From: Candidatus Gastranaerophilales bacterium
Lineage (GTDB): Bacteria > Cyanobacteriota > Vampirovibrionia > Gastranaerophilales > Gastranaerophilaceae
Reading direction: 5' to 3'
Assembly (NCBI GenBank): GCA_944327225.1
Contig: CALVGZ010000003.1
Location: forward strand, 1 to 64,000
Length of the DNA stretch: 64,000 nt
Shown here: piece by piece, positions 49,809 to 63,820 of the stretch
Position numbering within the stretch: the first letter of the stretch is position 1
Layout of the letters: every line of letters begins with the position of its first letter
Program-made: the position numbers and the translations under genes
The notes under the pieces: generated by a model
Database searches by the model: none
What the model was told of the DNA's origin: nothing
Seen by the model: the letters and a program-made list of their open reading frames with translations, nothing else

Positions 49809-51500
49809 ATGTTAAAAGATTATTTTATTGAAATTACGAAAAATGCCATAAATGAGGCAATTAAAAATTCCAAGCTGGGTCAAACAAAAGAACTTTCTTT
49901 TGAATTAATTTGTGAAGCACCTAAAAACAAAGATTTTGGAGACTTTGCAATTAACGTTTCAGCTCTTGCAAGAACTGCTAAAATGGCTCCGCCATTAATA
50001 GCACAAACTATAGCCGAATACATAAAACAAGAAAACTTCTCAGTAAATACAATTTCAGGTTTTATAAATTTTAAAATCGAAAAAGAATTTTTAAACAACA
50101 TAATAATTGAAATATTAAAAAAACAAAAAAATTACCTAAAGACAGACATTGGTAAAGGTGAAAAAGTTAATATAGAATACGTAAGTGCAAACCCAACAGG
50201 ACCATTTCATATAGGACACGGGAGATGGGCAGCACTTGGTTCGGCATTAGCTAACATTATGAAATACTGTAACTACGATGTATTTCAAGAATTCTATATC
50301 AATGATGCGGGCAATCAAATAAATAAACTTGGCAAATCTCTTGAAATAAGAGTACGCCAACTCGAAGGTGAAAATATTGAGCTTGAAGAAGGTTTGTACC
50401 CCGGAGAGTACCTGATTGATTGTGCTAAAAGATATATAAAAGATAACAAAGGTCTTTCTTATGCAGATTTTGCAAAACAAGACATGTTAAGACTGCAAAA
50501 AGAACTTCTGGAAAAATTTAGAACACATTTTGACCTTTTCTTTTCGGAACTTAATCTTTATGAAGACAAAGAAGTCGAAAAAGCAATGGAAGCTCTTAAA
50601 AAAGCAGGCAAAATATATAAAAAAGACGGTGCTGTATGGTTTAAAAGTTCCGATTATGGCGACGATCAAGATAGAGTACTTATTAAAACGGACGGCAAAA
50701 ATACTTATTTGACAGCCGATATAGCCTATCACAAAAACAAACTGGATAGGGGTTTTGATCTTTTAATTAATATTTGGGGTGCGGACCACCACGGATACAT
50801 TCCAAGAATGAAAGCGGCAATTGAAGCACTTGGTTATGACAGTAACAAACTTGAAGTTATATTAGGACAACTTGTTAACTTAATTCAAAACGGTGAACAA
50901 CAACGTATGGGAAAACGCAAAAAAATGATAACATTAGATGACCTGATTGATGAAGTGGGAGTCGATGCTACAAGATTTTGGATGATAATGCGTTCTTCCG
51001 ATACAACGATTGATTTTGATATTGATTTAGCAAAATCTCAAAGCGATAAAAATCCCGTTTTTTATGTACAATATGCCCATGCAAGGGCATGCTCAATATT
51101 AAGAAAAGCTATTGAAAAACGCCTTGATATAGATAATAAAACCGAACTCGAACCATTTTTTACAAAAGAAGAAATCGAAAACTTTTATAAAAATGCAGAC
51201 ATAAATGATTTGTTTAAAAATCTCTCAAATGAATCATATCAAGCAATAAGAACACTCATCTTAAAACTCGAAGAGGGAAAAGCATTATTATTAAATGCTG
51301 TAAAATACAGAGCTCCTTATATGCTATGTAAATATTTAACTGAGCTTGCAAATTCATTCCATCATTTCTACAACTACACAAGAGTGCTGTCCGAAGACAA
51401 AAAAGACAGCTTGATGAAATTATCTCTTGTAAATTGTTTTAGAATAGTAATGGCTACTATGCTTGACTTAATCGGGGTTGAAGCTGTAGAAAAAATGTAG
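49809..51500 (+). CDS. argS: Arginyl-tRNA synthetase
   Basis: This class I synthetase has the N-terminal tRNA-binding domain, the HIGH signature in GPFHIGHGRWAALG, NDAGNQINKLG, a KMSK-like QRMGKRKK, and the DALRS anticodon domain near the end. Length 563 is normal. A TAAAAT box lies nine bases before the ATG (with TTCACT 17 bases further up) and there is no Shine-Dalgarno site, so the leader is at most a few bases. It is directly followed by the tRNA-like repeats and tRNA-Ile. Confidence 0.96.
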   Translation: MLKDYFIEITKNAINEAIKNSKLGQTKELSFELICEAPKNKDFGDFAINVSALARTAKMAPPLIAQTIAEYIKQENFSVNTISGFINFKIEKEFLNNIIIEILKKQKNYLKTDIGKGEKVNIEYVSANPTGPFHIGHGRWAALGSALANIMKYCNYDVFQEFYINDAGNQINKLGKSLEIRVRQLEGENIELEEGLYPGEYLIDCAKRYIKDNKGLSYADFAKQDMLRLQKELLEKFRTHFDLFFSELNLYEDKEVEKAMEALKKAGKIYKKDGAVWFKSSDYGDDQDRVLIKTDGKNTYLTADIAYHKNKLDRGFDLLINIWGADHHGYIPRMKAAIEALGYDSNKLEVILGQLVNLIQNGEQQRMGKRKKMITLDDLIDEVGVDATRFWMIMRSSDTTIDFDIDLAKSQSDKNPVFYVQYAHARACSILRKAIEKRLDIDNKTELEPFFTKEEIENFYKNADINDLFKNLSNESYQAIRTLILKLEEGKALLLNAVKYRAPYMLCKYLTELANSFHHFYNYTRVLSEDKKDSLMKLSLVNCFRIVMATMLDLIGVEAVEKM

Positions 51501-51529
51501 TTGATTTTAAAATTTATTTATGATAACTT
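51501..51529 (+). promoter_or_regulatory. Possible promoter of the tRNA-Ile repeat locus
   Basis: TTGATT (51501-51506), 17 bases and TAACTT (51524-51529) preceded by TGa, just after the argS stop and about 40 bases before the first repeat. The -35 TTGATT is the same as in the tRNA-Gly promoter. The -10 match is weak. Confidence 0.3.
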
Positions 51530-51569: not shown

Positions 51570-51665
51570 GGGCTATTAGCTCAGTGGCTCTGGGTGGGAC
51601 TCCAGAAGACGGGTGAAAGTTCAATCGGGCAAAGTGACAATTAAATAAGTTTTAAAAACAAATAA
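51570..51665 (+). repeat. tRNA-Ile-derived repeat unit 1
   Basis: The unit begins with GGGCTATTAGCTCAG-TGGCT, the 5' end of the tRNA-Ile at 51764 (one base missing), then continues with about 50 bases not found in that tRNA and an A/T linker (TAAATAAGTTTTAAAAAC). The second part contains a TCTGG/CCAGA hairpin and a GTTCAATC that looks like a T loop, but no 3' acceptor strand pairs with GGGCTAT and no CCA end follows. It is not a working isoleucine tRNA. Confidence 0.85.
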
Positions 51666-51763
51666 GGGCTATTAGCTCAGGTGGCTCTGGGTGGGACTCC
51701 AGAAAAACGGGTGAAAGTTCAATCGGGCAAAGTGACAACTAAATAAGTTTTAAAAACAAATAA
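51666..51763 (+). repeat. tRNA-Ile-derived repeat unit 2
   Basis: This unit is nearly identical to unit 1 (a one-base insertion after the AGCTCAG, a GAAGAC/GAAAAAC difference and one T/C change in the linker) and leads straight into the intact tRNA-Ile. The 5' 21 bases match the tRNA exactly. The segment CTCCAGAAAAACGGGTG faintly resembles the anticodon arm and variable region of tRNA-Trp, so the units may be Ile-Trp chimeras. Confidence 0.85.
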
Positions 51764-51840
51764 GGGCTATTAGCTCAGGTGGCTAGAGCGCACCCCTGAT
51801 AAGGGTGAGGTCCCTGGTTCGAGTCCAGGATGGCCCACCA
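51764..51840 (+). tRNA. tRNA-Ile (GAT)
   Basis: The 77 bases fold into a full cloverleaf: acceptor GGGCTAT/ATGGCCC (one T-G pair), D stem GCTC/GAGC, anticodon stem CACCC/GGGTG with loop CTGATAA, T stem CCTGG/CCAGG with loop TTCGAGT, and an encoded CCA. The anticodon GAT reads isoleucine ATC/ATT. Confidence 0.98.
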
Positions 51841-51843
51841 TAA

Positions 51844-51872
51844 AGGAGAGTATGATAGGTACTCTCTTTTAT
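51844..51872 (+). terminator. Terminator after tRNA-Ile
   Basis: GAGAGTA (51846-51852) and TACTCTC (51860-51866) form a stem with a seven-base loop, followed by TTTTATT. Confidence 0.8.
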
Positions 51873-51978
51873 TATATAAAAATCAATCATTTTTTATAAT
51901 TGTAATAACTAATCGTGGCACTTATTGAATTAAAATAAAAATTTATTCACTTACAATCTTCTGTTACCAAAAAATATT

Positions 51979-63745: not shown

Positions 63746-63820
63746 TGGAGCGGAAGACGGGACTCGAACCCGCGACATCTTCCTTGGCAAGGAAGCATTC
63801 TACCACTGAATTACTTCCGC
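63746..63820 (-). tRNA. tRNA-Gly (GCC)
   Basis: The 75 bases on the minus strand fold into a complete cloverleaf: acceptor GCGGAAG/CTTCCGC, anticodon stem CTTCC/GGAAG with loop TTGCCAA, T stem CGCGG-type arm with TTCGAGT, discriminator T and an encoded CCA. The anticodon GCC reads glycine GGC/GGT. Confidence 0.97.

Follow-up and report, generated by a model that had tools for sequence, protein, structure and literature searches.

Our analysis of the DNA ahead of the tRNA-Ile(GAT) gene in a 64,000-nucleotide stretch of a Candidatus Gastranaerophilales genome (called the window below), and of the flanks of other tRNA genes in this order, shows arrays of repeat units in which a tRNA end and its flank are duplicated, with tandem growth, cores that are common to several tRNAs and an orientation that follows the tRNA end. 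One pair of empty and filled sites, a patchy distribution and excess sequence identity are also seen. These tRNA-end repeat units resemble very small mobile DNA of a type not described before, and the window units and the arrays at other tRNAs are probably short, non-autonomous mobile elements that target tRNA ends in the Gastranaerophilales. Below, G000 is the window genome, other G labels are genomes and L labels are fetched loci. All of the genomes are draft MAGs whose contigs often break at arrays, and most loci were fetched by tRNA similarity; the searches with the family A core and for relatives of the L093 insert (both below) are the only unbiased scans.

Each of the two window units (table 1) consists of a partial copy of the tRNA-Ile 5' end (a "stub"), then a core (TCTGGGTGGGACTCCAGA..ACGGGTGAAAGTTCAATC), then a linker rich in A and T, like the one before the tRNA itself. 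The original prediction had both units begin with the 5' 21 bases of tRNA-Ile; this is exact for unit 2, but in unit 1 only nucleotides 1–15 are matched and the next position is one G short. The near-identity of the two units stands: over 81 nt, the sequence common to the unit/unit and unit/tRNA junctions has 98% identity, well outside what chance would give. The array is found at one place in the genome and is real rather than an assembly artefact, because its copies differ, it lies in the interior of a 148-kb contig and independent MAGs carry the same type of array. Elsewhere in the order, many tRNA genes and array units likewise have sequence of this linker type ahead of them. A recurrent motif, T(G)AAAATTRAATA, stands ahead of many tRNA genes (for example in both linkers of table 1), and is reminiscent of the boxA-type leader motif of rRNA operons. 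Given the promoter-like site upstream, the window units would be transcribed as part of the pre-tRNA leader. The other tRNA gene of the window, tRNA-Gly(GCC) at 63746-63820, is without such an array.

Table 1. Features of the tRNA-Ile(GAT) locus in the window
Feature	Position	Strand	Remark
argS, upstream neighbour	49809..51500	+	phylogenetic yardstick
Promoter-like TTGATT...TGATAACTT, after argS stop	51501..51529	+	under the threshold of the consensus scan
Unit 1	51570..51665	+	96 nt: tRNA-Ile 5'-end copy minus one G, insert core, AT-rich linker
Hairpin-like core stretch TCTGG..CCAGA, unit 1	51589..51606	+	pairing read from sequence; folding statistics give no support
Unit 1 linker, TGACAATTAAATAAG...	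51635..51665	+	
Unit 2	51666..51763	+	98 nt: copy of tRNA-Ile nt 1-21, insert core, AT-rich linker
tRNA 5'-end copy (stub), unit 2	51666..51686	+	equals tRNA nt 1-21 exactly
Hairpin-like core stretch TCTGG..CCAGA, unit 2	51686..51703	+	read from sequence
Unit 2 linker, TGACAACTAAATAAG...	51733..51763	+	abuts the real tRNA-Ile
tRNA-Ile(GAT), intact	51764..51840	+	sole tRNA-Ile(GAT) found in the genome
Terminator-like hairpin and T run, 3' of tRNA-Ile	51846..51874	+	scan places the palindrome on the - strand

The window units are not tRNAs. Neither ARAGORN nor an Rfam cmscan (even at E<=10) detects a tRNA in either unit, so the earlier reading is borne out in that the units have neither a pairing acceptor strand nor CCA. 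The same reading saw part of a tRNA-Trp, with a T-loop-like stretch, in the units; this resemblance is due to chance, since the local score of 15 was equalled by 92 of 1000 shuffles and the best unit score over all 37 tRNAs was reached by 271 of 300. The letters of the proposed TCTGG/CCAGA hairpin are present in both units, but the units fold no better than shuffles (a related Ile unit has a folding z of +0.5) and the hairpin thus draws no support from folding statistics. We also rejected a group II intron origin. The Rfam match to group-II-D1D4-4 (10.8 bits, E 4.9) is below the gathering score, no such match (E<=1) occurs in twelve other array loci, and we consider it chance.

The relatives of this locus recovered via argS come from Candidatus Gastranaerophilales gut MAGs. 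They keep the order argS, promoter-like site, tRNA-Ile, with zero, one or two units in between, and the promoter-like site is retained whatever the number of units. Units are present in many relatives, so the absence from close relatives that would have counted against the original prediction is not seen. Another genus-level group has an Ile unit of the same plan, which opens with that group's own tRNA-Ile 5' end (GGGCTGC.. versus GGGCTAT..) but has a different middle. Additional tRNA-Ile units lie on the 3' side in some species (L033, L035, L036, L048 and L092). The 3' Ile units of L033, L035, L036, L048 and L107 have a core with the two hairpins GTGCG-TTAC-CGCAC and CCAAGG-CTC-CCTTGG; modified versions of this core recur in distant families.

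The window unit is patchily distributed among these relatives. Unit 2 is 95.9% identical over 98 nt to the unit of L080, although the argS genes of these two species share only 77.1% identity and their leaders, from argS to the array, 57%; units are absent from L100, L074 and L087, which are closer by argS (81–82%). On the argS tree of 31 sequences the presence of units switches at least seven times. Gain, loss and exchange between species would fit this patchy presence and excess identity, and the exchange probably proceeds by homologous recombination anchored on the tRNA. For the window Ile core, movement between species is indicated, but the core was seen at tRNA-Ile only and not moving from one tRNA gene to another; we place it in the mobile class on the grounds of its shared architecture, its patchy presence and its excess identity. 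Among the roles that the original prediction listed (decoy RNA, RNase P substrate, mobile-element scar, regulator of tRNA-Ile), the mobile one is best supported, in the form of array-forming elements rather than a scar. A decoy or regulator of tRNA-Ile finds no positive support at this locus, where the units fold like shuffles and show no compensatory pair.

Similar arrays are present at other tRNA genes. We surveyed the flanks of all tRNA genes using exact 12-nt seeds, with unrelated tRNAs as the control. In the window genome this detected chimeric repeats at the Ile, Lys-TTT, Phe, Arg-CCT and Leu-CAA tRNAs (control, 23 of 1266 pairs); the genome also has a family A copy (below) after Arg-ACG. 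The congener G009 has such repeats at about nine tRNAs (control, 45 of 1350), G045 of another family at three, and G033 at none by this 12-nt seed survey. In the common plan the tRNA end and flank are repeated and accompany an insert rich in hairpins, which often also contains the same tRNA end in antisense. At 5' ends the order is linker, tRNA 5'-end copy, hairpins, usually antisense D-arm region, linker, tRNA; at 3' ends it is mirrored, with tRNA, flank, the tRNA 3' part in antisense, hairpins, and a tRNA 3'-end copy with flank or terminator. Stubs distal to the tRNA drift away from the tRNA sequence, and the inverted repeats seen in units derive from the target tRNA. Arrays with mixed cores occur at L188, L325 and L353.

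Individual arrays vary in size and state. The tRNA-Lys(TTT) gene of G000 (contig C8; L008, L152) has two identical 106-bp upstream units, each of which holds an exact 16-nt antisense copy of the tRNA D-arm, and unit and tRNA are 100% identical in G003. In G000 C19:1-212 (L002), tandem degenerate copies of about 85 bp follow tRNA-Arg(CCT), and the contig terminates inside the array; these copies are without the acceptor 5' strand and their anticodon loop is altered. The tRNA-Phe gene of G000 (C26; L016) has two 5' units, and tRNA-Leu(CAA) (C12; L027) has 3' units with an antisense T-arm. Upstream of tRNA-Leu(TAG) in G045 (C3; L289), an N run separates two copies of a unit end, which suggests a longer, unassembled array.

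The loci L092 and L093, close sisters on the argS tree, form a pair in which one site is empty and the other filled. In L093, tRNA-Ile is interrupted at nucleotide 17 by a 116-bp insert, which lies within an exact 61-bp direct repeat made of 44 nt of leader and 17 nt of tRNA-Ile; L092 has no unit at this site. This is one event of target duplication, in a family other than that of the window core, and 61 bp would be very long and unusual for a transposon. The insert folds far better than shuffles (z -5.5). Its relatives, which we call family C, adjoin tRNA-Met/Ile2 in the sister genome; related genomes have them at tRNA-Pro, and some of the family C copies stand in mixed arrays that also contain inverted family A.

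Families A and C have portable cores. That of family A (GGAGCAAYCGCTTCGCTTWTGCCCTCTC, a variable hairpin, TTCGGCAGAGT) was searched in 58 whole genomes regardless of tRNAs, with the reversed pattern as a control; it is present in 22 of the 28 genomes of the genus and in none of the 30 others, and the control gave 0. It stands after Phe, Arg, Lys, His, Leu and Met tRNAs, typically starting 42–56 nt past the tRNA 3' end (Phe, Arg-ACG, Lys-CTT, His), and reverse-complemented before Leu tRNAs, typically 44–50 nt ahead of the 5' end. Among 30 fetched family A loci, 24 have a tRNA on the fetched DNA and six do not, several of the latter at contig ends. The copies of L320 (Leu 5') and L324 (Phe 3') are near-identical, variable hairpin included. 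Family C is found before Ile, Met/Ile2 and Pro tRNAs, so that both families occupy several distinct sites, as palindromic elements do. In all 38 family A and C copies that have a tRNA within 700 nt, orientation is set by the tRNA end and not by transcription. The segment past the family A core always corresponds to the end of its own tRNA (median longest match 12 nt, versus 4 nt for other tRNAs), and none of 320 swaps reaches 12; for P1 stem length the same kind of test is moderately decisive only (median 6 versus 4, with 33 of 320 swaps equally good), and we do not count it among the main evidence. Cores of both families are found in the array of L351, where neither ARAGORN nor Rfam finds an RNA gene; this is perhaps an orphan array or an unrecognised structured RNA.

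Movement of such elements might proceed as follows. Short pieces of non-coding DNA with a core of about 50–120 bp would use tRNA gene ends as insertion sites and enter the gene some 8–21 nt inside from either end. Insertion would be accompanied by duplication of the tRNA end and tens of bp of flank, and a complete tRNA would therefore always remain; because the duplicated segment restores the tRNA, insertion should be nearly neutral. The duplicates of flank plus tRNA end would then serve as direct repeats, at which recombination or slippage could gain, lose and shuffle units to give tandem and mixed arrays, and cores could pass among tRNA genes and, via tRNA-anchored recombination, among species. 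The antisense arm may be a by-product of the insertion chemistry (snap-back or template switch) or, alternatively, may be kept since it holds the surplus tRNA end in a hairpin. The elements would then be actively mobile and selfish, an enzyme would be involved, and 5' arrays would simply be removed with the pre-tRNA leader. A more specific and doubtful version is an undescribed insertion system that would build arrays at tRNA ends much as CRISPR systems or integrons do: a hairpin module oriented by the tRNA end would be inserted, tRNA end and flank copied, and the module given an antisense copy of its new target.

Searches for a mobilising enzyme or a carrier were negative. In the window genome neither a Y1 transposase (RAYT) nor Cas1 (control genomes were positive) nor a reverse transcriptase (RVT_1) was detected, and we reject all three as the driver there. 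Viral carriage was likewise rejected: IMG/VR has no match to exact patterns for the Ile core and Ile 3' core or for families A and C, and the exact family A pattern has none in phage records. An exact 29-nt core has no match in named genomes. We found no relevant description of tRNA-associated repeats in Gastranaerophilales or Melainabacteria in the open-access literature.

Could the arrays have arisen with no element at all? Slippage and template switching by the host at tRNA genes might give tandem duplications with inverted filler copied from the tRNA, neutral debris that gene conversion homogenises. Template switching predicts sense and antisense copies of one tRNA end and duplication with filler, and the absence of detectable Y1, Cas1 and RT domains and the divergence of distal stubs agree with it. 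But the same core is found at different tRNAs (the hairpins at Leu 5' and Phe 3' are nearly identical), which means that filler is not newly made from each locus; moreover orientation depends on the tRNA end, and cores are retained where flanks are not. We regard this explanation as unlikely. Some larger integrative elements have tyrosine integrases for which tRNA genes serve as attB, and a partial tRNA copy next to a tRNA gene is the classic sign of integration of this kind (PMC9897764). It is very improbable, however, that the units are scars of such elements: they are tandem repeats of about 100 bp that lack ORFs of their own and occur at either end of tRNAs, often the 5' end; no ORF, integrase or cargo lies between the copies, and the inserts are small hairpin modules common to several loci.

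A functional 5' leader or 3' trailer RNA, whose antisense arm would pair with stub or tRNA to shield the tRNA or to control folding or processing of the pre-tRNA, would suit the position of 5' units between a conserved promoter-like site and the tRNA, and several units do beat shuffles in folding (z -2 to -5.5). Pairing of stub and antisense arm is kept in some stems after both sides have drifted (Lys L154 and L165, Ile L088 and L090, by eye), and there is one double change in each of two alignment sets. Overall, however, covariation is weak (at most one doubly changed pair per alignment set and none in the Ile set), so retention of antisense pairing is not proven, and the window units fold like shuffles. 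In addition, many species are without units, and a core that stands forward at 3' ends and reverse-complemented at 5' ends is not predicted by a function at the transcript level. We thus think such a function quite improbable; if it were real, the units would add a new type of element to pre-tRNA leaders and trailers. If mobile elements are the correct explanation, the tRNA genes of a widespread gut lineage harbour tiny parasitic DNA that is neutral through rebuilding its own target, and a non-coding class is added to tRNA-associated mobile DNA. This would explain the frequent breaks of draft assemblies at tRNA genes in these genomes, and raises the question of which enzyme acts and how the antisense target copy arises.

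These units share features with several known systems. Integrative elements leave a truncated tRNA copy beside an intact tRNA (PMC9897764), and so do the units described here, but with no integrase or cargo, with tandem units and at the 5' end too. CRISPR and integron cassette arrays are similar in one respect, that a constant segment (flank plus tRNA end) alternates with differing inserts (L325, L353, L188); unlike CRISPR, there is no Cas1 in the window genome and the inserts come from a few recurring hairpin families rather than being unique spacers, and unlike integron arrays there are no cassette ORFs. The bacterial MITEs RPE, YPAL/RU-2 and ERIC are <200 bp, non-coding and hairpin-forming, comprise several families and encode no transposase themselves; the duplications that YPAL makes vary over 3–26 bp, its preferred sites have dyad symmetry, and RPE has entered the RNA genes for tmRNA and M1 RNA (PMC2229807). 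The tRNA-end elements are likewise short, non-coding and hairpin-forming and fall into several families. On the other hand, their site is the tRNA end, the duplication includes that end (61 bp in the one clean case), and they carry an antisense copy of the target and build tandem, mixed arrays.
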